Below, one piece after another: positions 9,371 to 21,318 of a DNA stretch of 64,000 nt. How positions within the stretch are numbered: position 1 is the stretch's first letter; each line of letters opens with the position of its first letter. The notes beneath the pieces were generated by a model that worked only from the letters and a program-made list of their open reading frames with translations, was not told where the DNA came from and did no database searches. The translations under genes and the position numbers were made by a program. Location of the stretch: positions 1-64,000 of the forward strand of contig NZ_LJCP01000014.1 in assembly GCF_001399755.1 (NCBI RefSeq), read 5' to 3'. The DNA comes from Thiohalorhabdus denitrificans (GTDB lineage: Bacteria > Pseudomonadota > Gammaproteobacteria > Thiohalorhabdales > Thiohalorhabdaceae).

Positions 9371-10804
9371 TCAGGCCCCGCCTTCCGCCCCGCCCTCGAG
9401 CTGGTACTTCTTGATCTTCCGCCAGAGGGTGGACTTGTTGATCCCCAGGATCTCGGCGGTCAGGGCCCGGTCCCCCTCCGTCTCGTGAAGGGTCTTCTTG
9501 ATGAAGTAGGCCTCCACCTCCTCAAGGCTCTGCGGGGGGATGTAGTCCAGCGCCTTGCCGGCCACCTCCCCGGGCTGCTGGAGCTCCGGGGGCAGCACGT
9601 CGGTGTCGATCTTCTCCCCCTCGGCGAGGATCACCATGCGCTGGACCAGGTTCTCCAGCTCGCGCACGTTGCCGGGCCAGTCGTAGCGCATGAGCGCGCC
9701 CAGCACCGGCGTGGTGACGCCCTTCAGGCTCTTGCCGTACTTCCGGGTGTACTTGTGGAGGAAGTATTGCGTCAGCAGGGGAATGTCGTCCCGCCGGTCC
9801 CGGAGCGGGGGCACGTCGATCTCGATGACCTTGAGGCGGTAGAACAGGTCCTCCCGGAAGTGGCCGGCCTCGATCAGCTCCGGGATGCCCCGATTGCTGG
9901 CGGCCAGCACGCGGACGTCGGTGGTCCGGGGCTGGGTGTCGCCCATGGCGTAGTAGGCCCCGTCCTGGAGGACCCGCAGGAGCTTGGCCTGCAGAGACAG
10001 GGAGGCGTTATTGATCTCGTCGAGAAAGATGGTCCCGCCGTTGGCCGCCTCGAACAGGCCCGGCTTGTCGCGATCGGCCCCGGTGAAGGCGCCCCGCCGG
10101 TAGCCGAACAGCTCGCTCTCGATGAGGTCCTCGGGGATGGCGGCGCAGTTCACAGCCACGAAGGCGTAATCGGCCCGCGGACTCTGTTTGTGGATCTGGC
10201 GCGCCACCAGCTCCTTGCCCGAGCCCGACTGCCCGCCGATGAGCACGCTGCAGTCGTAAGCGGCCGCGGCGTCCACCAGCCGCTGCACGGCCACCATCCC
10301 GGCGGACTGGCCGATCAGGGCCGAGCTGCCGAACAGCCGCTGCTCCGCCCGCAGCCGGCGGTTCTCCATGCTCAGGCGGTTGTGCTCCAGGGCCCGCTCC
10401 ACCGTGTGGTAGAGCTCGGCATTGTCGAAAGGCTTGCGGATGTAGTCGTAGGCGCCGCTCTTCAGGGCCTCCACGGCGGACTCCACCGTGCCGTACCCCG
10501 TGATCATCACCACCTGGACCGAGGAATCCTGCTGCTTGGCGAAGCGCAGCACGTCCAGGCCGTCCACCCGGGGCATCTTGAGGTCGGTGACCACCACCTC
10601 CACCCGGCTGCGCTCCAGGTAGTCCAGGGCCTCCTGGGAATCGGTGAGGCCGACCACCTCCGCCTCCAGCGGCTTCAGCACGCTGGCCACCAGCTCGCAC
10701 ATCTTGGGGTCGTCCTCGCACACGAGGACCCGCGGGAGGCGGTCGAGATCCTCCGGAGCCTCCTCGGTGCCCTCCCCGCTTTCCGGATCAATCGCTAGCT
10801 TCAT
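9371..10804 (-). CDS. NtrC-family sigma-54-dependent response regulator
   Basis: 477 residues. The receiver domain (25-140) has the acidic pair D31-D32, phosphoacceptor D74 in VVVTDLKMP and K124. The AAA+ domain has Walker A GGQSGSGK (190-197), the sigma-54 contact loop GAFTGA (238-243) and Walker B IFLDEI (259-264). The Fis-type helix-turn-helix near the end reads ALTAEILGINKSTLWRKIKKYQ, a C-terminal DNA-reading helix. The ATG at 10804 overlaps the end of the kinase gene by 17 bases; frames further upstream are only a shadow of the kinase. With the kinase it should activate sigma-54 promoters, three of which lie in this window. Confidence 0.93.
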   Translation of the reverse strand: MKLAIDPESGEGTEEAPEDLDRLPRVLVCEDDPKMCELVASVLKPLEAEVVGLTDSQEALDYLERSRVEVVVTDLKMPRVDGLDVLRFAKQQDSSVQVVMITGYGTVESAVEALKSGAYDYIRKPFDNAELYHTVERALEHNRLSMENRRLRAEQRLFGSSALIGQSAGMVAVQRLVDAAAAYDCSVLIGGQSGSGKELVARQIHKQSPRADYAFVAVNCAAIPEDLIESELFGYRRGAFTGADRDKPGLFEAANGGTIFLDEINNASLSLQAKLLRVLQDGAYYAMGDTQPRTTDVRVLAASNRGIPELIEAGHFREDLFYRLKVIEIDVPPLRDRRDDIPLLTQYFLHKYTRKYGKSLKGVTTPVLGALMRYDWPGNVRELENLVQRMVILAEGEKIDTDVLPPELQQPGEVAGKALDYIPPQSLEEVEAYFIKKTLHETEGDRALTAEILGINKSTLWRKIKKYQLEGGAEGGA

Positions 10805-12275
10805 GGGCCTTGGCCGAGGGTAGACGGAGGATGAACCGAGCGCCGTCGGCGTAGTCGGCGTCGTACATGATGTAGCCGCCCCGCTTGGAAAGCATGGCCT
10901 GGGATATGGCGAGCCCCAGGCCGCTCCCGGCACCCACATCCTTCGTGGTGAAGAAGGGGTCGAAGACGCGACTGCGGATCTCGGGTGGGATGCCCGGGCC
11001 GTTGTCCTCCACGCTGGCACCCACCATGCCGTTGGGCTCCTCCCAGGTCCGGATCCGCACCTGGGGGTTATCGACCCCCTTCAGGGCCTGGATGGCGTTG
11101 AGGATCAGGTTGGTGAAGACGATGTCGAGCTCGCCGCAGCCGCCCTCCACCTCCGGGATCCCGGGGTCCAGCTCGGTTTCCAGATCCACCTTGAACCGCT
11201 TCAGCCGACAGTTCAGGAAGGTGTCGTTGACCTCCCCGATCAGGGCGTTGAGGCCGCAGGTCTCGCCGACGCACTGGTCCTTGCGGGCGTAGTTGAGCAG
11301 GTCCTGGACGATGCGGGAGCACTGCTTGGCCTCCTCCACCACCACACCGGAGTAGTGGGCGAGGCGCTCCGGGTCGTCCAGGGACTCCTGCATCAGCTGG
11401 GAATAGCCGAGGATGTTGCCCAGGGGCGTGTTCAGCTCATGGGCCACCCCGGCCGCCAGCTGGCCCATGGCCACCAGCTTCTCCCGGGTGTACACGCTTT
11501 CCTGCAGGCGCTTGTACTCGGTGATGTCCTGGAGGGTGACCACCGCCGCCATGTCCGTGTCCTCCCGGGAGAGGAAGGACAGGTTGATGGAGACCGCGCG
11601 CGGCTCCTGACCGATGGTCAGGGCGATCTCCTGGTTGCGCACGGGGCGTTTGTAGAGGAAGGCGTCCCGCAGGATGCAGCGGTCCGCCTCGTTGAGGTCG
11701 AGAAGCTCGAACAGGTTCTGGCCGATCAGGGCCTCCGCCGGGCCCTCCATGATCTCCTCGGCCTGCTTGTTCACCGTGGTGATGACCAGGTTCTCGTCGA
11801 CGCTGATCAGCGCCCCCGGCAGGCTCTGCAGCAGGGCGTCGGTCTTGTTGCGCTCGGCGAGCACCTTGTTTTGGCATTCTTCTACATAGTTGAACGTCGA
11901 CCGCAAGTTCTCGATCATTCGGTTGTAGTCGCTGACCATCCTGGACATTCGAGGGTCGAGGTCCCCGAGGGTGCCCACCTCCACCGGCTGGAGGCAACCC
12001 TCCTTGGCCTCGGCGATTTTATCGTGAAGGGCCCGCAGCGCCTCGTCGCGGGCCTCCCGATGCACCTCGTCACTCCGCGTGCGTGAGGTAACGAGGATGG
12101 CGAGTCCCAGGACGGAAAGCAAGGAGGCCCCGGCGAGGCCATCCGCCCGGACCTCCGTCGCCGCCCATAGCCCTACTCCCAGGAGAAGCAGGACCCCCGC
12201 AGAAATGCGCCTGCGTGAATCGCCCTCCTGCCACCATGCGCGAAGCCCGGCGTACCGGGAGAAAAGCTCCTTCAT
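10788..12275 (-). CDS. Membrane PAS-domain sensor histidine kinase
   Basis: 495 residues. Two hydrophobic segments (about 25-40 and 45-63) anchor the protein with almost no periplasmic loop, so the signal may be sensed in the membrane or cytoplasm. A PAS domain spans about 145-258 (LLQSLPGALISVDENLVITTVN is its start). The dimerisation motif GVAHELNTPLGN carries H279, and the ATPase domain has NLILNAIQAL, DNGPGIP and GSGLGLA. The architecture is that of NtrB/HydH-like kinases that partner NtrC-type regulators. It sits directly between the porin and regulator genes and should be the cognate kinase. The stimulus is unknown. Confidence 0.9.
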   Translation of the reverse strand: MKELFSRYAGLRAWWQEGDSRRRISAGVLLLLGVGLWAATEVRADGLAGASLLSVLGLAILVTSRTRSDEVHREARDEALRALHDKIAEAKEGCLQPVEVGTLGDLDPRMSRMVSDYNRMIENLRSTFNYVEECQNKVLAERNKTDALLQSLPGALISVDENLVITTVNKQAEEIMEGPAEALIGQNLFELLDLNEADRCILRDAFLYKRPVRNQEIALTIGQEPRAVSINLSFLSREDTDMAAVVTLQDITEYKRLQESVYTREKLVAMGQLAAGVAHELNTPLGNILGYSQLMQESLDDPERLAHYSGVVVEEAKQCSRIVQDLLNYARKDQCVGETCGLNALIGEVNDTFLNCRLKRFKVDLETELDPGIPEVEGGCGELDIVFTNLILNAIQALKGVDNPQVRIRTWEEPNGMVGASVEDNGPGIPPEIRSRVFDPFFTTKDVGAGSGLGLAISQAMLSKRGGYIMYDADYADGARFILRLPSAKAHEASD

Positions 12276-12316: not shown

Positions 12317-13531
12317 CTAGAAAATCAGCTGCAGCCCGGCCGTGGCCTGGTCGTAGTCCTCCAGGGGCGGCACACCGTCCATGGGCTGATCGAAGTCCAC
12401 CATGGCGTACTCGAACGTGAACTTCAGTCTCTGTCCGTCAATGTAATAGTTGAATCCCGCACTGTTCCAGGTCTGGTCATAGAAGCCGGTGTCGACGTTG
12501 TAGTCGGAGTTCTCGTAGCGGTAGAAGAGCTGCAGCCGGCCGGGCCCCACCTTGCCGGGCACCAGGTAGCCCGCCTTGGCGTAGTAGGCATCCAGCTCGC
12601 TGGTGATGGGTAGCTCGTCGTCCGGGTTCATGTTGATGGCGTCACCCACGCTGTAATCCATGTAGGCACCGGATAGCGTGGGCGTGCCCCAGCTGAACGG
12701 GTACTCGAAGAAGATGTCCGCGGTCCAGGCGTCGTAGTCCTTGCTGTCCGACAGGTTCGGGGCATCGCCGTAGGCCACGTCCGCCTGGTAATCGTAGGAG
12801 GCACCGATGGTCAGGACCCGCTGGGTGCCCAGATAGGTGCCCCGGTACCCGTACTGGTACTCGGGATCGAGCAGGGACCAGTGGATCCGTCCGGTCACCC
12901 GAGGGGAATCCTGCACCACCTCGTCGGCCTCGCGCCCGTCGGCCACCATCACCCGGTACTGCACCTGGGCGTCGAGCAGGTTGCCCCACATGGCCACGCC
13001 CACGTCCCGGCTGCGCCCGAAGGGCGTGTAGGCGATGGTTTCCGCCCGGTCCAGGGTCAGGGGCTCCAGGCAGGCCTCGAGGTTCTCGCGGGTGAAGGTG
13101 TTCTTGAACTTACCGACGATGAAGCGCAACGGGTCGGAGAAGTCCATGGTGAGGTAGGCATCCCGGTAATAGATGGAGCGGCCGGTGCTCATCGTCTCGT
13201 CCCGGCCATCGGAGGTCGCCTCCAGCTGCGCGTAGAAGCCGATGTAATCGGACCACTGCCCCTTGAAGGTCAGCCGGTTGCGGCGCAGGAAGAAGTCCGT
13301 CTGCGAGCCGTTGTCAGTGGCCGAGGTGAAGTCCTGATACTGTGCCCAGAACTGGCCGGCGTAGTTGAAGGTTACGAAACCCTGCTCGCCGAAGTTCGCC
13401 GTCGGCCCCGCCTGGGCCGTTCCCAGGCCGGCCGCGAAGAGGAGTCCCCCCCAGCCGGCCCGTTTCAGGATCCCGCTTCCGCAATGCCCCCGCATGGGAG
13501 CGCCCCGCTCGGTCGTACGCTGTGAATGCAT
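12317..13531 (-). CDS. Outer-membrane porin, Porin_O_P-like
   Basis: 404 residues from the ATG at 13531, which has AAGGGGGA 6 bases upstream; an ATG two codons earlier is possible. A signal peptide ends near GLGTAQA. The mature protein shows alternating aromatic/polar beta strands (FVTFNYAGQFWAQYQDF, FLRRNRLTFKGQWSDYIGFYAQLE, LRFIVGKFKNTFTREN) and ends in an outer-membrane signature with terminal Phe (ATAGLQLIF). FLRRNRLTFKG and the GKFKN segment are like phosphate-selective-type porins. It follows a 3-haem cytochrome gene by 36 bases and precedes the kinase by 41, within one sigma-54-driven unit. It may form the outer-membrane pore of a conduit or oxyanion uptake system. Confidence 0.82.
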   Translation of the reverse strand: MHSQRTTERGAPMRGHCGSGILKRAGWGGLLFAAGLGTAQAGPTANFGEQGFVTFNYAGQFWAQYQDFTSATDNGSQTDFFLRRNRLTFKGQWSDYIGFYAQLEATSDGRDETMSTGRSIYYRDAYLTMDFSDPLRFIVGKFKNTFTRENLEACLEPLTLDRAETIAYTPFGRSRDVGVAMWGNLLDAQVQYRVMVADGREADEVVQDSPRVTGRIHWSLLDPEYQYGYRGTYLGTQRVLTIGASYDYQADVAYGDAPNLSDSKDYDAWTADIFFEYPFSWGTPTLSGAYMDYSVGDAINMNPDDELPITSELDAYYAKAGYLVPGKVGPGRLQLFYRYENSDYNVDTGFYDQTWNSAGFNYYIDGQRLKFTFEYAMVDFDQPMDGVPPLEDYDQATAGLQLIF

Positions 13532-13567
13532 TTGCATTCCCCCTTCCGTTCCTGGCAATTCCGCCCG

Positions 13568-14086
13568 TTAGTCGTCCACCGCCTTATAGGTCTCCAGCAA
13601 GCCGTCCACCTCGCCGCCCTCGTGGCACTCGGCGCAAGCGGTCTCCGGATGCTCACGCGGGTCCGGGAGCATTTCTTTGTGGGCGATGCCCTTGACCATC
13701 AGCCGTTGGTTGCCCTGGTGGCAGCCGTCGCAGGAGTGGTTCACCTCCATGTGATCGGGGTGCCAGGGATCCGACTCGGCATCCATGGCCGGAGCAGGAC
13801 CCCGCCGGCCCTCGTTGTGGCACTTGAAGCAGGAGGTGGCGCCCAGGCCGCAGGCGTTGGCCACGTTGACGGGCGCCTGCTCCAGGACGCCGTGGTGGAT
13901 GGAGGACAGGACCCGATCCCCCCAGCCCTGCTCCGCCCGTTCCGTGGCGGCGAGCTCATCGAGGGCAGCCTCTTCCCGGTTCTGTTCCACGCCCGACAAG
14001 CTCAGCGCCGTGACCGCCGCCACCACGGCCAGCGCACCGCTGGTCACGCCCAGCCGACTCGTTGCAGCACGAAGCAAACGTTTCAT
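13568..14086 (-). CDS. Tri-haem c-type cytochrome, periplasmic
   Basis: 172 residues with an N-terminal signal anchor or signal peptide (about 10-32, AALSLSG-like end). Three CxxCH haem sites are seen: CFKCH (86-90), CDGCH (119-123) and CAECH (151-155). Several other histidines (IHH, HPDH, NH) could serve as distal ligands, and an extra Cys79 precedes the first site. The protein should be an exported electron carrier matured by the cytochrome c system. It lies between the small lipoprotein and porin genes in the sigma-54 unit, so it probably hands electrons to or from the outer-membrane components. Its exact family was not recognised. Confidence 0.85.
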   Translation of the reverse strand: MKRLLRAATSRLGVTSGALAVVAAVTALSLSGVEQNREEAALDELAATERAEQGWGDRVLSSIHHGVLEQAPVNVANACGLGATSCFKCHNEGRRGPAPAMDAESDPWHPDHMEVNHSCDGCHQGNQRLMVKGIAHKEMLPDPREHPETACAECHEGGEVDGLLETYKAVDD

Positions 14087-14894: not shown

Positions 14895-16133
14895 TCAGCC
14901 CTCCCCGTCCAGCGCCACCCGCTCGCTCAACGCCCGGAAGCGGGTGGCCACCGCCTCCTTCAGGGCCTGCTCCAAGGTACGCACCGTCTCCGCGCTCATC
15001 TTGTCCGCTTGCTGGAACATGTAGCGGAACAGGCGCTCGTAATGCTCCTGGGGCGCCACGTCCAGGTGCAGGGCCACCCGCCAGCCCGCCGCCTGATCCG
15101 GGAGACGGGCCTCCGATTGCAAACGCACGGCCTCGCCCGGGGACAGCCGGGTATCGTAGAGCTCCTCCGTCATCTCCACGTCCGCCCCCCAGCCGATCAC
15201 CGCCCGGTCCAGCTCCTCCCGGACCTTTCCCTGGCCGTCCTCCAGCACCAGGCGGGCGTACACCTTGGGGGTCAGATAGGTGGGGAACTTGTGGCCGGCC
15301 CCTGTGTTGGCCACCTCCCCGGCAACGCGGTACGCCCCTTCCCCCGCAGGCTCGGCGTCCAATTCCACCGTGACGGCCTCCCGTACCATCCCGGGGTCGT
15401 GGATCCCCTTCCACCGATGCTTCTGGCCCGGCATGTGGCAGGACTGGCAGGTCACCCCCTCCTCGGCGTAGCGGCTGGCCCGCCACTCCTCGTAGGTGTT
15501 CTCCCGCAGTTTGCCGTTCAGCTTGGGGCCGTCCTCGGGGAACTGGTGGCACTCGGCGCAGAAGCGGCTGGAGCGGTAGGCCTCGGTGGCCACGAAGCCG
15601 TCGTGCGGGGCGCGCTCGGCGGGCAGGGGATCCTCGGCTGGCGGGCCGAAGCGCTTGTGGCCGCGCACGTGGCAGGCGGCGCACACCAGCCCCTCGCGGT
15701 GCAGATCGGCGGGGACATGCTCCGGCGGCGCCCCGCCGGTGTCCTCCCAGCCCAGGTCCCGCCCCATCAGGGCGAGCTGCTCGGCCATGGGGGCGTGGCA
15801 GCGGGCGCACTCCTTCACCTGCTCGGGGCTCTTGACCCGGAACTGCCACCAGATCCCGGCGCCCATGGCCTGGCTATGCAGGCTGGCGTCCCATTCCGCG
15901 AAGCGGTCTGGATGGCAGGAGCGGCACGCGCCGGGGTCCAGGGAGGCCTCCAAAGGCGTGAAGCCCTCGGGCGGCTGCCCCTGGGCGGGGATGGGATGGG
16001 TCCAGAAGCGGTCCAGGAAGGCAGCGGTAGCTTTCTCCTCCGCCGCGCCCGGCTGCAGGGCCCACCAGGCCAGGGACCCGCCCGCCACGGCCACGACCAA
16101 AATCCCCAGCATCGCGAATCCACGCCCGCCCAT
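14895..16133 (-). CDS. Penta-haem c-type cytochrome, membrane-anchored (c554-like)
   Basis: 412 residues from the ATG at 16133, with AAAGGAG upstream; a longer frame to 16181 lacks support. One N-terminal membrane segment (about 7-26) is followed by five CxxCH sites: CRSCH (70-74), CARCH (109-113), CAACH (151-155), CAECH (192-196) and CQSCH (229-233). The last 170 residues lack haem sites and look beta-rich. Cytochrome c554-like proteins have the same haem-dense N-terminal half. The gene stands alone between a terminator upstream and the lipoprotein operon downstream; no sigma-54 element was found for it. It may relay electrons between membrane and periplasm for the neighbouring porin/cytochrome set. 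Confidence 0.83.
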   Translation of the reverse strand: MGGRGFAMLGILVVAVAGGSLAWWALQPGAAEEKATAAFLDRFWTHPIPAQGQPPEGFTPLEASLDPGACRSCHPDRFAEWDASLHSQAMGAGIWWQFRVKSPEQVKECARCHAPMAEQLALMGRDLGWEDTGGAPPEHVPADLHREGLVCAACHVRGHKRFGPPAEDPLPAERAPHDGFVATEAYRSSRFCAECHQFPEDGPKLNGKLRENTYEEWRASRYAEEGVTCQSCHMPGQKHRWKGIHDPGMVREAVTVELDAEPAGEGAYRVAGEVANTGAGHKFPTYLTPKVYARLVLEDGQGKVREELDRAVIGWGADVEMTEELYDTRLSPGEAVRLQSEARLPDQAAGWRVALHLDVAPQEHYERLFRYMFQQADKMSAETVRTLEQALKEAVATRFRALSERVALDGEG

Positions 16134-16271
16134 GGCGGCTCCTTTCTCTGCCGTTGCCCCCTCATAGCAAAGAGGGCACAACCCGAAAACCTACAATGCG
16201 CCCTGCCCGCCCCACGGCACCCTATCACCCACCAACAAGACCGGAAGTGAGGTCACCCTACCTGAGGAAGC

Positions 16272-16423: not shown

Positions 16424-17917
16424 TCAGCCGCAGCCCTGCTCGGGGACGGCCACGTCGCCGTCATCGCCGCCCGAGGACCCACCGGAATCATCCGCGTCCG
16501 GATCGTAGTTGATCCAGCGGCTGGCCTCGGGGATGTCCGCCCGCCAGGGGGAGTCCGACGCTAGGTTGTAGGTGCCTTCCTTGTTCTGGTGGTAGGCCAT
16601 TTTGCCCCACTGCATCCAGGCGCCGTCGTAGAAGCGGGTGGGCTTGCCCAGCACCACACCGCTGGCAATGCCGGTGATCATGGCGCGGTAGGTAGTCACA
16701 CAGTAGGTGATCACCGTCTGGCCGTCCTCGTAGCCCAGGCCGTCCAGCTTGGATTGCAGGGCGGGCTTGCTCAGATACCGGTAGCCCTCATCAGCCACCA
16801 GCAGCTCGCCGTAGGGCAGGTTCTCCGCGGTACGCACGTGGCCCTCGAAGGCGTAGCCGCGACCCTGGTTCTCCAGGCCGTAGTACTCCTCGGCGGAGCG
16901 GGCGTCCCAGAGGAGATAGCCGCCGGAAGGCACGCCCTCGCTCTCAGCCACCATCTTCAGCAGTCCCTCGTAGCTGATCATGAGGTCCATGTTGGCTTCG
17001 GGGAGATCCGCAGCTGGGGTTGGTGCAGTAGCCACTGAACCATCAGCAATGGAGGGGTTGTAATGGCCGGTAACCACGGTGGATGGATCCGTATTTTCCT
17101 GAACGCTGGATAGGTCTCCCTGGCTGGCGTGGTATTGAGCCCCACCGTTCAGCATGGCCAGATTCTCGGCCGGTGCCCCCCAGTAGCGCAGCGCATACCA
17201 GACACGACCCATCTGCATATTGGCGAAACCGCCGCCCTTGCCCATGGCCACCACCACCATGTCACTGGTGGGATCGATATTGTACTTGGCCATGAAGTTA
17301 TTGATGCCGGACTCGCTGGGGACCATGGCCACGGAGTCCATGACCCCGTTGTTCCGGTTCTCCCGCACATCCATGTGGCTCACCACATAGGTGCGGACGT
17401 TGTTTCCGTCTCCATTACCGGTGTTCTGCTGGAAGTAGGTCCCGCCGCCGGTCCAATTGCCGTCGTCGTCGTAGTTTCCGCCATCGGCCACCTCCAGGAT
17501 CACCAAATCGCCGCTGAAGCCGGAGGGCTTATTTCCCGCCGGCCAGTCGTTCATCCAGGCTTCCAGGGTCCCCGCCGTGATCAACCCGTTGGTGTTGTTG
17601 CTGTAGTCGGCATCCGACTCCTGAGCGATGTCCGCCGGGGACTGCAGCGACGGCGAGCCGCTCTTCGCCGCAAAGTCCGTGTCCGGGATCACGGAGGCAC
17701 TCTCGGCGTAGGAGTCCACCCCCGTGGGCCGATCCACCGTGGACGGGTCGTTGTAGTTCACCGGGTCCGAGGTCCCGTTCATGTACTCGGTGACGGTCTT
17801 GTTGTCCGCTTCGTCGCCGCAGCCGCTCAGGGCGAGGACGCCCGCCACCGTCAGTGCGCCCGCCCGTGCTCCGGTTCCGAAGAACCGGCGAATGGCCGGA
17901 TTGGTGTGTGAAGCCAT
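16424..17917 (-). CDS. Rhodanese-domain lipoprotein, two-domain
   Basis: 497 residues. The lipobox LALSGC places the lipidated cysteine at residue 33. After a Ser/Asn/Asp-rich region, two rhodanese-like domains follow: the first (about 105-260) has DLVILEVADGG and TSDMVVVAMGKGG but no clear active-site Cys; the second (about 310-480) has YLLWDARSAEEYYG, HVRTAENLPYGEL and the loop TYCVTTYRAM with Cys406 as the likely sulfur-carrying residue. The C terminus is Asp/Ser/Gly-rich. Extracytoplasmic rhodanese lipoproteins occur in polysulfide metabolism and as ExtH of the Geobacter extHIJKL cluster. It has its own sigma-54 promoter and terminator. Substrate undecided. Confidence 0.83.
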   Translation of the reverse strand: MASHTNPAIRRFFGTGARAGALTVAGVLALSGCGDEADNKTVTEYMNGTSDPVNYNDPSTVDRPTGVDSYAESASVIPDTDFAAKSGSPSLQSPADIAQESDADYSNNTNGLITAGTLEAWMNDWPAGNKPSGFSGDLVILEVADGGNYDDDGNWTGGGTYFQQNTGNGDGNNVRTYVVSHMDVRENRNNGVMDSVAMVPSESGINNFMAKYNIDPTSDMVVVAMGKGGGFANMQMGRVWYALRYWGAPAENLAMLNGGAQYHASQGDLSSVQENTDPSTVVTGHYNPSIADGSVATAPTPAADLPEANMDLMISYEGLLKMVAESEGVPSGGYLLWDARSAEEYYGLENQGRGYAFEGHVRTAENLPYGELLVADEGYRYLSKPALQSKLDGLGYEDGQTVITYCVTTYRAMITGIASGVVLGKPTRFYDGAWMQWGKMAYHQNKEGTYNLASDSPWRADIPEASRWINYDPDADDSGGSSGGDDGDVAVPEQGCG

Positions 17918-17983: not shown

Positions 17984-17999
17984 TGCAGGGGGCGTGCCA
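17984..17999 (-). promoter_or_regulatory. Sigma-54 promoter of the rhodanese gene
   Basis: Minus-strand TGGCACGCCCCCTGCA fits TGGCACG-N4-TTGCW except for one base in the -12 lead. The GG and GC are at the required spacing. It lies 67 bases upstream of the ATG. Confidence 0.85.
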
Positions 18000-18054: not shown

Positions 18055-18100
18055 GATTGCAGAACCAAGCCGAGGGCAGAGAATCTTGCCAAATGCAATA
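18055..18100 (-). promoter_or_regulatory. Candidate enhancer pair for the NtrC-type regulator
   Basis: Inverted sites GATTGCA (18055-18061) and TGCAATACGGAC (18094-18105), with centres 39 bases apart. The near one is 59 bases from the -24 end of the sigma-54 promoter. An A-rich stretch lies between (18000-18035). Spacing matches the pairs at 14433 and 21262. Confidence 0.55.
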
Positions 18101-18254: not shown

Positions 18255-18278
18255 AAAAAAGCCGCCCGAAGGCGGCTT
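18255..18278 (-). terminator. Rho-independent terminator of the YeeE-TusA-DsrE-like operon
   Basis: Minus-strand stem AAGCCGCC-TTCG-GGCGGCTT with a stable UUCG-type loop runs into TTTTTT. It lies about 40 bases after the last small gene. Confidence 0.9.
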
Positions 18279-18317: not shown

Positions 18318-18506
18318 CTACCAGCAGAACACCCGGTCCGCCTCGGTCAGGGCACTGAACAGCTCGGCGTCGAACTCCTCGGGGCCGGCCTCGCGCTCGG
18401 CGAGGCAGACCGTGCGACAGGAGTGGGCGTCGTCCAGGGCGTCGAGGACGCTGTTCACTCCCTCGCTGAGGTCCTCCCGTCTGCGGACCACGTGCAGTAT
18501 CTCCAT
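18318..18506 (-). CDS. Small DsrE/TusB-like protein
   Basis: 62 residues; ATG at 18506 with GGAG 8 bases upstream. It begins MEILHVVRRRED and ends with ADRVFCW. The hydrophobic start, the short length and a C-terminal Trp recall TusB/DsrH subunits, which act in the DsrEFH/TusBCD sulfur relay, but the similarity is weak and no family was confirmed. Three cysteines (HSCRTVC and FCW) could carry sulfur. It is the last gene of the operon, 27 bases after the next DsrE-like gene. Confidence 0.5.
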   Translation of the reverse strand: MEILHVVRRREDLSEGVNSVLDALDDAHSCRTVCLAEREAGPEEFDAELFSALTEADRVFCW

Positions 18507-18533
18507 GGTCGGGCTCCTCCCGGTTCTCGGAAT

Positions 18534-18812
18534 CTACAGGGCCAGCACCGCGTCGTAGCCGGGCAGGCGCTCGGCCAGGGCGGCGGGGGCCACGCTTCCG
18601 CCCGGGGCCTCGTGGCCGGGCACGGCGGACACCGGCTCCACGTCGGCGAACTCCAGCACCTCCATCTGCTCCTCCACGGCCGGCGTGTCGGCCAGCGGCT
18701 CGTCGAGGACATAGACGTCCACCGCGTGGTCCGTCAGCGTCATGCCCCCGGCCACCCGGAGGGCCTCCGCCTGGTTGTGGCGGACCAAAACCGCAACCTG
18801 CTTCTCCGTCAT
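18534..18812 (-). CDS. DsrE-like small protein
   Basis: 92 residues from the ATG at 18812, which has a perfect AAGGAGGA 6 bases upstream; the open frame to 18896 is not needed. It opens with KQVAVLVRHNQAEALRVAGG and ends YDAVLAL, the alpha/beta pattern of small DsrE-family subunits. No cysteine is present, so it would be a structural rather than a sulfur-carrying subunit if it forms a complex with its neighbours. It lies between two other small DsrE-like genes on the same strand. Confidence 0.55.
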   Translation of the reverse strand: MTEKQVAVLVRHNQAEALRVAGGMTLTDHAVDVYVLDEPLADTPAVEEQMEVLEFADVEPVSAVPGHEAPGGSVAPAALAERLPGYDAVLAL

Positions 18813-18892
18813 GGGCTCCTCCTTGCGCAGGCCCGACGGCTCGGGCCGGCTCCCTCGTTCTCGTGCCCGCCCCGGGCGGGGCGGGGTCTCGA

Positions 18893-19192
18893 TCAAAGCA
18901 CCAGGACCTTCTCGGCCCAGCCCATCATCAGGGCGTTCTGGTACTGGCTGGCGTACTGGTAGCCCGGCAGCGGCTCCCCGAGCTTGAAGCGCTCCCAGCT
19001 GTGCTCGCAGACGGTGACCCCGGCGCCGGCCTCCTCGGCGGCGGCGCGGAACTCGGGGTCCTGCAGCACCTTAACGCCGGCGTCGGTGAGGAAGCAGGCC
19101 GCCTCCGCCCCGTTGGCCGCCGCCTGCCGCAGAAGGCCGGTGGCGCAGCCGGGGAATTCGTCCGTGGCCACCAGGACTCCGATCTTGCTCAA
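18893..19192 (-). CDS. DsrE/F-family sulfur relay-like protein
   Basis: 99 residues with a TTG start at 19192, preceded by GGGGAGG. The fold signature is IGVLVATDEFPGCATGLLRQAAANG, then ACFLTDAGVKVLQD, then GAGVTVCEHSWERF where Cys could be the sulfur acceptor, and a final WAEKVLVL. DsrE-family proteins pass persulfide sulfur to or from TusA. It follows the 28-residue membrane peptide and tusA in the operon, consistent with such a relay. Confidence 0.62.
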   Translation of the reverse strand: MSKIGVLVATDEFPGCATGLLRQAAANGAEAACFLTDAGVKVLQDPEFRAAAEEAGAGVTVCEHSWERFKLGEPLPGYQYASQYQNALMMGWAEKVLVL

Positions 19193-19242
19193 TGCCTTTT
19201 CCTCCCCTTTGCCGCGCGGATCCCGGCCGCGCGGTCCGCTGG

Positions 19243-19329
19243 CTAAAAGTTGGCTACCCAGATGGAATAGCCGATGAATACAAGACAGACTGCCCAGATC
19301 GCCGCCAATGGCCGGTTCATGGCTTGCAT
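19243..19329 (-). CDS. 28-residue single-span membrane peptide
   Basis: A short frame encodes MQAMNRPLAAIWAVCLVFIG followed by YSIWVANF and a TAG stop. GGAGAGGGGGA lies just upstream of the ATG. A single hydrophobic span (about residues 8-27) makes it a likely inner-membrane microprotein. It sits exactly between tusA and the DsrE-like gene, 10 bases after the tusA stop, so it is translated from the same message. It could assist the YeeE-type transporter; this is inference from position only. Confidence 0.6.
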   Translation of the reverse strand: MQAMNRPLAAIWAVCLVFIGYSIWVANF

Positions 19330-19339
19330 TCCCCCTCTC

Positions 19340-19591
19340 CTACAGTTTCCGGATCTTCCAGCAGAAGCTGCCGCCGCTGTCCTGCTTCTCCAGCAGCTCG
19401 TTGCCCTCGGATTCGCACATGGACTCGATGGACTCCCCCGAGGAGGGGTTGTCGAAGATCAGCGCCAGGATCTCCCCGGAACCCATCTTGCCCAGGGCCT
19501 TCTTGGTATACATCTGCGGGTGGGGGCAGACGTAGCCCGTGACGTCCAGCTGGTACTCGCCTTCGCCGGTCTTCTCGAACTTCACCGCCAT
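19340..19591 (-). CDS. tusA: TusA-family sulfur carrier protein
   Basis: 83 residues from the ATG at 19591 with GGAG 7 bases upstream. The core is LDVTGYVCPHPQMYTKKAL, giving the CPxP motif (Cys22, Pro23, Pro25) whose cysteine carries persulfide sulfur. Length and the beta-alpha-beta-alpha order match TusA. The usual hydrophobic residue between the prolines is His here, and extra cysteines (MCESEG, SFCWKIRKL) are present. It lies 55 bases after the YeeE-type transporter gene; YeeE-TusA pairing is a known arrangement for thiosulfate or sulfur import. Confidence 0.88.
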   Translation of the reverse strand: MAVKFEKTGEGEYQLDVTGYVCPHPQMYTKKALGKMGSGEILALIFDNPSSGESIESMCESEGNELLEKQDSGGSFCWKIRKL

Positions 19592-19646
19592 GATCGTTCT
19601 CCTATCGATACGCGGGGCCGGCCCGGGGCCGGCCCACTCCCGTCGT

Positions 19647-21119
19647 TTACAGGTCGAAGTCCATCTCTTTCGCGGCCTTGCGGTCCACCCACCAGTTAAA
19701 GACCTGCACAGCGGCGTAGGCGCCGATCGCCATGCCGGCCAGGAAGATCCAGCCGCTGAGGTCGCCGTTGGTGACGGCGGCGAAGAAGGCACCGATGTTG
19801 CAGCCCATGGCCAGGCGGGCGCCGATGCCCATGAGCGTGCCGCCCACCAGGGCGAAGATGGCGGTCTCCAGGTTGGGCTTCTTCCATTTGAACTCCCGGT
19901 TGACCAGGGCAATCATCATGGCGCCCAGGATGATGCCGATGGACATGAGCAGCGGGGCGTTCAGGAACGGGTTGGGCAGCCCGTTCTCCAGGCCGAAGTA
20001 GATGTTGTCCATGTAATTGAAGCCCATCCGCTCCATCACCCAGCCGCCCAGCTGGGCCTCCTGGGTGGTGATGTACCAGTAGCCCGGATCGAACACCGTG
20101 TTCTGGATGGAGAGGCCGGTGTCATGGCCCATGCGGCCCATGAGCTCGCCGAAGTTGAAGATGTCGTACTTCTCCCGGAGCCCGCCGATCACCCACATCT
20201 GCAGGCCGGCGAACACGCCCAGCCCCAGGCCGGCCAGGGCCGTCTTCTTGGAGGAGGTGAGCAGGGCCCAGATGCCGCGCAGCTCGTTGCGCAAACCCAC
20301 GGGGCCCTCGGTGAGGCCCTCGCGGCGCAGATAGCCCTTGCGGAAATAGAAAGCGTAGAGCACCAGCACGATGGCCAGGGCGGGCAGGATGGCGCCCAGC
20401 AGGGCGTTGCCCAGGAAGGCCCCCGCCACGGTGCCCTCCATGCCGAGCAGGCCGGCCACGGTGCCGCCGGAAAGCTCCCAGATGTAGCCGGCCATGAACT
20501 GGTCGAACCAGCCCTCGGTCACGGACAGGCTTTCCGGCATCCCGGTGGCCGCGGCGTTCTCCGACCAGGACTCGGGCACCAGGCCGTCCGTCCAGGTGCC
20601 GGTGGCCACGAACCAGGCCTGGGAGAAGGAGATGGCCACCAGCACCAGCATGGAGCCGCCGTTGCCCTCCCCGGCCTTGTACAGAGAGCCGGAGGCGCAG
20701 CCGCCGGTGAAGACGATGCCGAACCCGAAGATGGCCGCCCCGATCAGGATGTGCCAGCCCAGGGGATGCGGGTGGAACGGGCTGATCCCCGCGGCGGTGA
20801 CCGCCGCGGCCGTCAGGGAGTACAGCACCACCGCGATCATCACCCCCACCGCCATGCGCGGGACGTTCATGCTGAACAGGTCCCGCACCGCGGAGGCCAT
20901 GCAGAACCGGCCGTACTGCAGCAGGATGCCGTACACCAGGCCGAACCAGAGGTAGGAGATCAGGTAGATCCAGCGCTGGTCCACGGACAGCGCCCACATG
21001 GAGGCCACGGTCGCCGCCCCGAGCACCCCCAGGGCGTAGAGGGGGCCCCGGTTCTCCTGCGCCTTCGCGACCTGGGCGCCCGCCTCCGCCGACGCGCCCG
21101 CGTTCGTTCCGTTCGCCAT
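19647..21119 (-). CDS. YeeE/YedE family sulfur (or selenium) transporter
   Basis: 490 residues, ATG at 21119 with GGGGAGAGG upstream. About ten or more membrane spans carry the three signature cysteine motifs of the family: QYGRFCMASAVRD (Cys73), FTGGCASGSLYKAG and LAMGCNIGAFFAA, where the cysteines relay a sulfur ion through the membrane. It is about 100 residues longer than E. coli YeeE, with an extra central hydrophilic loop. It is the first gene of the unit ahead of tusA and has a sigma-54 promoter 72 bases upstream. Thiosulfate is the known substrate of YeeE; selenium has been proposed for YedE. The choice cannot be made here. Confidence 0.88.
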   Translation of the reverse strand: MANGTNAGASAEAGAQVAKAQENRGPLYALGVLGAATVASMWALSVDQRWIYLISYLWFGLVYGILLQYGRFCMASAVRDLFSMNVPRMAVGVMIAVVLYSLTAAAVTAAGISPFHPHPLGWHILIGAAIFGFGIVFTGGCASGSLYKAGEGNGGSMLVLVAISFSQAWFVATGTWTDGLVPESWSENAAATGMPESLSVTEGWFDQFMAGYIWELSGGTVAGLLGMEGTVAGAFLGNALLGAILPALAIVLVLYAFYFRKGYLRREGLTEGPVGLRNELRGIWALLTSSKKTALAGLGLGVFAGLQMWVIGGLREKYDIFNFGELMGRMGHDTGLSIQNTVFDPGYWYITTQEAQLGGWVMERMGFNYMDNIYFGLENGLPNPFLNAPLLMSIGIILGAMMIALVNREFKWKKPNLETAIFALVGGTLMGIGARLAMGCNIGAFFAAVTNGDLSGWIFLAGMAIGAYAAVQVFNWWVDRKAAKEMDFDL

Positions 21120-21190: not shown

Positions 21191-21206
21191 AGCAGGCTCC
21201 GTGCCA
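21191..21206 (-). promoter_or_regulatory. Sigma-54 promoter of the YeeE-TusA operon
   Basis: Minus-strand TGGCACGGAGCCTGCT matches TGGCACG-N4-TTGCW except for one base, with correct GG-GC spacing, 72 bases upstream of the YeeE start. Confidence 0.86.
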
Positions 21207-21261: not shown

Positions 21262-21318
21262 CATCGCAAATTTCACTCGCCCCCGCTTACGCCGGGGAGC
21301 CGGCTGAAATTTGCAATG
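21262..21318 (-). promoter_or_regulatory. Candidate enhancer pair, long inverted repeat
   Basis: CATCGCAAATTTCA (21262-21275) and TGAAATTTGCAATG (21305-21318) form an inverted repeat matching at 13 of 14 bases. The near TGCGATG-type core is centred 59 bases from the -24 end and the two cores are 50 bases apart, one helical turn more than the 39 of the other two promoters. A T-rich block (21216-21240) lies between promoter and sites. Confidence 0.6.

Follow-up and report, generated by a model that had tools for sequence, protein, structure and literature searches.

The import of extracytoplasmic zero-valent sulfur into the cytoplasm of sulfur oxidizers is still an open question. The YeeE-like protein SoxT1A is required for sulfur import and is the only importer demonstrated experimentally in dissimilatory oxidizers, but its authors do not consider it a general solution (PMC11582611). 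A related arrangement is the 'YTD' cluster, whose small proteins were recognised as DsrEFH type II in 2026 (PMC13293266; the cluster also appears in PMC13047784). Persulfidated TusA loads Cys67 of DsrE type II, DsrEFH hands the sulfur on to DsrC, and co-occurrence of DsrAB with DsrEFH type II, at 79%, is typical and not strict (PMC13293266). Here we describe a YeeE operon of Thiohalorhabdus denitrificans, found in a stretch of 64,000 nt (contig NZ_LJCP01000014.1, positions 1 to 64,000; hereafter the window), which brings a YeeE importer together with an outer-membrane conduit previously known from Geobacter selenite/tellurite reduction, the Ext system.

The operon alone is a member of a kind present in the recent literature. 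What is new is its pairing with the Ext genes, their probable co-regulation and the presence of sHdr without DsrC; in the open-licence papers searched, neither the pairing nor a YTD-type cluster beside sHdr without DsrC has been described. We consider that the operon probably belongs to an envelope-spanning import line for sulfane sulfur, running from the rhodanese/cytochrome system through YeeE and TusA to DsrE, and would put the probability of this reading at a little under 0.6. Many genomes of Thiobacillus, Thiohalobacter, Thiogranum, Hydrogenophilus and Gallionella carry the module, which provides a concrete gene set for testing, including DsrEFH type II genes in genomes that have sHdr and lack DsrC.

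Pairing of the YeeE operon with an Ext-type conduit

Genes for a YeeE/YedE transporter, TusA, a 28-residue open reading frame (ORF) and three small proteins (D1-D3) lie on the minus strand at 21119-18318 with intergenic gaps of 10-80 bp, and every reading frame of the preliminary description is present at its position. The next operon on this strand (17917-12317) encodes an ExtH-like rhodanese lipoprotein, an ExtKL-like five-haem cytochrome, a three-haem cytochrome and the ExtI porin, with genes for a kinase and an NtrC-type regulator after it. By their scores below the NCBIfam cut-offs, ExtH and ExtKL of the window are classed as relatives, not equivalogs, of the named families.

This YeeE was searched for in one genome per species across about 85,000 species, giving 80 loci whose neighbours were annotated by hidden Markov model (HMM). 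In 60 gamma- and betaproteobacterial loci (the window and two whole-genome loci counted) YeeE and TusA are accompanied by ExtKL and/or ExtI, a recurrence beyond chance. ExtH and the three-haem cytochrome are nearly always present in these ext-linked loci, the kinase and the sigma-54 regulator usually, and D1 in 53 of them. The commonest order, on one strand, is (second TusA)-YeeE-TusA-D1-D2-D3-ExtH-ExtKL-cytochrome-ExtI-kinase-regulator. The second TusA-like protein (CPRPQLL, with the cysteine in 56/56) is encoded just upstream of yeeE in most ext-linked loci; the window has none at that place. Genes flanking the conserved block vary between genomes, which marks the block as a discrete module, and the unrelated flanking genes of five loci therefore give no clue to the substrate.

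The YeeE phylogeny gives the same picture. The main ext-linked type forms one clade of 64 rows (support 100/99), in which six rows labelled 'classic' derive from loci cut by contig ends, and the YeeE of the window is the deepest branch of this clade, itself on a long branch. Furthermore, among 185 genomes of the class that were surveyed, ExtI exceeds its NCBIfam cut-off in exactly the three with this YeeE; with the genome of T. denitrificans itself excluded, two genomes with ExtI remain, and by chance both would be among the six YeeE carriers of 184 in about 9 cases in 10,000. The 60 loci, the single clade and the census thus bear out the tie proposed earlier between the YeeE operon and the extracytoplasmic rhodanese/cytochrome/porin set. 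Two ext-linked loci, L090 and L091, have a YeeE outside the main clade. In both, which are metagenome-assembled genomes (MAGs), the ext operon is divergent from YeeE-TusA-one-helix protein-D1-D2-D3-kinase-regulator, possibly a second, independent pairing.

The preliminary description had also assigned both operons the same kind of promoter and enhancer pair, and sigma-54 sites and ATTGCA half-sites do lie upstream of both. Across the relatives, a consensus sigma-54 match better than shuffled sequences (p<0.05) lies upstream of 42/81 YeeE units and of 21/63 extH genes. In ext-linked loci, ATTGCA counted in both orientations reaches 117 occurrences upstream of YeeE units (14 expected from shuffles) and 45 upstream of extH (9 expected). 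An enhancer palindrome with fixed spacing was looked for and not found, the half-sites alone being enriched. These motifs suggest that the two operons are probably co-regulated, and that the co-encoded sigma-54 regulator may bind ATTGCA. Genes for a probable relay of single sulfur atoms standing beside a conduit, and probably switched on with it, in about 60 bacteria suggest one machine for extracellular sulfur.

The two operons could instead serve separate functions, the Ext set as an electron conduit for minerals or electrodes and the YeeE operon for sulfur traffic, with only the regulator and the neighbourhood in common. Each has its own promoter, and the terminator-like hairpin after D3 indicates that the YeeE unit is probably transcribed separately from the extH operon. 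Moreover, classic YTD clusters exist without a conduit, and Geobacter ext clusters have been described without YeeE (PMC5877670). However, the enhancer motif is common to both operons, and in seven loci (Solimonas, Cellvibrio, Hydrocarboniphaga and one MAG) the order is ExtH-cytochrome-ExtI-YeeE-TusA-ExtKL without D1-D3, so that yeeE-tusA of the three named genera stands between extI and extKL. The Ext set itself includes a rhodanese, ExtH, and another one, of secreted type (signal-peptide-like start, active site CQTGTRS), is encoded 0.5-8 kb from yeeE in 13 of the 17 classic YTD loci. Such a frequency suggests that this YeeE may generally have an extracytoplasmic rhodanese as its partner, with the Ext set as an elaborated version. 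Separate functions therefore seem quite improbable to us.

Putative sulfur-carrying proteins and the proposed relay

Pfam and NCBIfam contain no noteworthy match to D1, D2 or D3. Searching the PDB with profiles of D1 and D2 brought up weak matches only (D1 to 3mc3 at E 0.057 and to 3pnx at E 0.24, both of the DsrE family), so structure comparison was needed. The predicted structure of D1, built from 44 homologues with a mean predicted local distance difference test score (pLDDT) of 96.5, matches DsrE of DsrEFH (2hy5_A) with Z 13.8 and a root-mean-square deviation of 1.6 over 98 residues, and chain A of TusBCD with Z 13.5, well above unrelated folds at Z 7; Cys62 is invariant in 70/70 homologues. 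For D2 (pLDDT 85) the matches to 3mc3 (Z 9.9) and 2hy5_B (Z 8.2) are moderate, close to what Rossmann-like folds commonly reach, and give moderate support to a DsrE/DsrF-like prediction. A profile comparison of D1 with D2 found no relation. D3 is probably DsrH-like; only its position, its size and a common terminal motif point to this. Taken together, D1-D3 correspond to DsrEFH type II as known from YTD clusters (PMC13293266), with D3 matching DsrH by position only. The 'three small DsrE-family-like proteins' of the preliminary description accordingly stand firmly for D1, moderately for D2 and by position for D3, and the label 'DsrE-like' can be refined to DsrEFH type II, which had not been recognised.

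Invariant cysteines are found along the whole proposed route: Cys406 of ExtH in 72/72 homologues, three cysteines of YeeE in 83/83 and Cys22 of TusA in 81/81. The YeeE operon would form the inner half of the envelope-spanning import line. On the envelope side, ExtH, a lipoprotein rhodanese, would carry sulfane sulfur on Cys406, and the five-haem and three-haem cytochromes together with the ExtI porin would allow access to, or electron exchange with, sulfur outside the cell. Sulfur would then cross the membrane via the three YeeE cysteines, Cys22 of TusA would take the persulfide, and Cys62 of DsrE in the DsrEFH type II complex would receive it. The next acceptor would be DsrC with reverse DsrAB in most carriers and the sHdr-LbpA pathway in T. 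denitrificans, and the conduit-encoded sensor kinase and sigma-54 activator would turn on both operons. This scheme draws on gene content, synteny, the DsrE and DsrF-like folds, the invariant cysteines, the promoter and enhancer motifs and the cytoplasmic pathways of each genome. Import by YeeE and transfer from TusA to DsrE are predicted from homologues, while we only infer that ExtH hands over to YeeE, that the sulfur moves inward, what the cytochromes do and that sHdr is the end point. Entry of the sulfur as a reduced atom, as the preliminary description had it, is not supported by sequence, which tells neither the chemical form nor the direction of transport. The TusA-to-D1 relay had been proposed earlier, and the invariant cysteines, the DsrE fold and the published transfer between homologues (PMC13293266) support it. 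A broader proposal, that the conduit activates zero-valent or mineral-bound extracellular sulfur and that the persulfide passes via YeeE, TusA and DsrEFH type II to reverse Dsr or sHdr as a general route of Thiobacillus-like oxidizers, is tentative and somewhat doubtful.

Another candidate cargo would be thiosulfate, imported by YeeE as in TsuA-TsuB and cleaved by TusA, with DsrEFH type II carrying the sulfane sulfur and the Ext set serving only for electrons or for thiosulfate formation outside. The nearest solved relatives of this YeeE are the Spirochaeta thermophila YeeE structures, for which thiosulfate uptake has been demonstrated (PMC11073785), and SoxB is present in the genome. Nevertheless, YeeE reaches only 107.2 and 93.8 bits against TsuA cut-offs of 400 and 645, TusA only 31.3 bits against the TsuB cut-off of 147.5, and the TusA and DsrEFH type II of cable bacteria are not persulfidated by thiosulfate (PMC13293266). 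Thiosulfate import is consequently judged unlikely.

Selenium, which the preliminary description had admitted as a cargo, is very unlikely. The Ext set would then reduce selenite or tellurite, and YeeE/YedE with TusA/YedF would import selenium. NCBIfam names ExtH, ExtI and ExtKL for selenite/tellurite reduction, YeeE matches YedE/FdhT at 1.1e-43, and the genome contains a selD match within a 785-aa frame. However, the YedE/FdhT score is 149.9 against a cut-off of 350, YedF models give 43.7 of 79 and 29 of 110, selD is not above its cut-off in 17 of 31 carriers tested, and D1-D3 occur with dsrA.

The cytoplasmic end of the import line differs between genomes. Among the ext-linked genomes tested, dsrA is present in 41/53 and DsrC in 46/53; SoxB is present in 22/31 carriers tested, and T. 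denitrificans and the genome G028 both have it. dsrA is missing from each of the six tested genomes that have no D1-D3, although all six belong to one clade. Genome searches of T. denitrificans (99.9% complete) and G028 (100% complete) found D1-D3, no dsrA above cut-off and no DsrC, and these are the two complete genomes without DsrC. The published model ending at DsrC cannot hold in T. denitrificans, since DsrAB and DsrC are absent. Its genome encodes a complete sHdr cluster, HdrC1-B1-A-hyp-C2-B2, with two lipoate-binding proteins, DsrE, LipS1, lipoate ligase and a LipT-like reductase (L175, G000:C7:214001-234000), and G028 has a nearly equal one (two lipoate-binding proteins, LipS1, lipoate ligase, DsrE) on a contig that begins inside HdrB1. 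From this gene content, sHdr is the likely end point of the sulfur in T. denitrificans. The preliminary description had missed both the absence of DsrC/DsrAB and the presence of sHdr.

Several points weigh against the import line. The sHdr cluster of T. denitrificans includes a TusA and a DsrE of its own, and D1-D3 might therefore deliver to some other acceptor; the DsrH identity of D3 rests on position. The Solimonas, Cellvibrio and Hydrocarboniphaga loci keep ExtH-ExtI-ExtKL-YeeE-TusA without D1-D3, and dsrA and SoxB are missing from those tested; sulfur oxidation fails to explain them. Moreover, the phenotype described for ExtI concerns selenite/tellurite reduction (PMC5877670).

Features of the two operons

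The coordinates of genes and regulatory sites are collected in Table 1. The window contains no Rfam match and no tRNA.

Table 1. Genes and putative regulatory sites of the YeeE and Ext operons in the window.
Feature	Position	Strand	Evidence
Inverted repeat GCAAATTTCA/TGAAATTTGC and ATTGCA half-site, probable enhancer	21266..21317	.	sequence; motif enrichment
Sigma-54 type -24/-12 site TGGCACGGAGCCTGCT, 72-87 bp upstream of yeeE	21191..21206	-	consensus match
YeeE/YedE-like membrane transporter, 490 aa, Cys73/Cys141/Cys440	19647..21119	-	PF04143 1.5e-46
TusA sulfur carrier, 83 aa, Cys22 in CPHP	19340..19591	-	PF01206 7.3e-20
28-aa ORF, one hydrophobic helix	19243..19329	-	ORF
D1, DsrE of type II, 99 aa, TTG start, Cys62	18893..19192	-	structure model; invariant Cys
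D2, DsrF-like, 92 aa	18534..18812	-	structure model
D3, probable DsrH-like, 62 aa	18318..18506	-	position, size, terminal motif; protein at equivalent place in relatives
Terminator-like hairpin and T run after D3	18259..18278	-	such matches not rare by chance
Two ATTGCA half-sites upstream of extH, probable enhancer	18056..18099	.	motif enrichment
Sigma-54 type site TGGCACGCCCCCTGCA before extH	17984..17999	-	consensus match
ExtH-like lipoprotein rhodanese, 497 aa, Cys406	16424..17917	-	NF040901 1.3e-21 (77.1 bits, cut-off 200); PF00581
ExtKL-like five-haem cytochrome, start uncertain	14895..16181	-	NF040886 3.7e-15 (55.4 bits, cut-off 250); five CXXCH in 58/62
Three-haem cytochrome	13568..14086	-	three CXXCH in 58/59
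ExtI porin, start uncertain	12317..13558	-	NF040900 354.8 bits, cut-off 150
Sensor histidine kinase	10788..12275	-	sequence; same place in relatives
NtrC-type sigma-54 response regulator, start uncertain	9371..11020	-	PF00158, PF00072, PF02954

A good ribosome-binding site precedes the 28-aa ORF, whose product has a single hydrophobic stretch. The view that this peptide is a regular part of the operon was not borne out, as TusA and D1 adjoin directly in most relatives, without the ORF between them. In 16 classic YTD loci, one or two small one-helix proteins (MKxxLWVVILVVxGFxGFLMGYSxPP...) are encoded directly 3' of tusA; this family is apparently unnamed in the YTD literature searched. Sequence kinship of the 28-aa peptide with these longer proteins is not supported, as an HMM comparison was no better than shuffles (253/1935 as good), and the common features are only the position and a single hydrophobic helix.

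Comparison with known systems

The closest described system is YTD, that is yeeE-tusA-dsrEFH type II (PMC13293266; PMC13047784), which has the same YeeE, TusA and three small proteins in synteny, the DsrE fold and one invariant cysteine. Classic YTD clusters have no Ext conduit, another gene order and mostly DsrAB, whereas the window cluster has ExtH-ExtKL-ExtI with a sigma-54 system and no DsrAB/DsrC. Canonical DsrEFH/TusBCD (2hy5, 2d1p) has the same DsrE/TusD fold and active cysteine as D1. In contrast to that system, however, D1-D3 have no detectable sequence family match, D3 is much shorter, and the genome has no DsrC/TusE partner.

The partner operon resembles Geobacter extHIJKLMNOPQS (PMC5877670; PMC6148476) in its rhodanese, its ExtI porin above cut-off and its five-haem ExtKL-like cytochrome. 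It differs in having four ext-type genes only, an extra three-haem cytochrome and the link to YeeE-TusA, with ExtH and ExtKL below the NCBIfam cut-offs.

Among YeeE-family transporters, TsuA-TsuB (YeeE-YeeD; PMC11073785) likewise pairs the transporter with a TusA-like partner, but it is assimilatory and has no DsrEFH, and the window proteins fall far below the TsuA/TsuB model cut-offs. Similarly, SoxT1A with sHdr-LbpA (PMC11582611) is a YeeE-family importer in an sHdr sulfur oxidizer, and it too has a gene for a small one-helix protein nearby. The ties of SoxT1A are to Sox proteins and DsbA, whereas the YeeE of the window is tied to the rhodanese/porin/cytochrome set and to DsrEFH type II.

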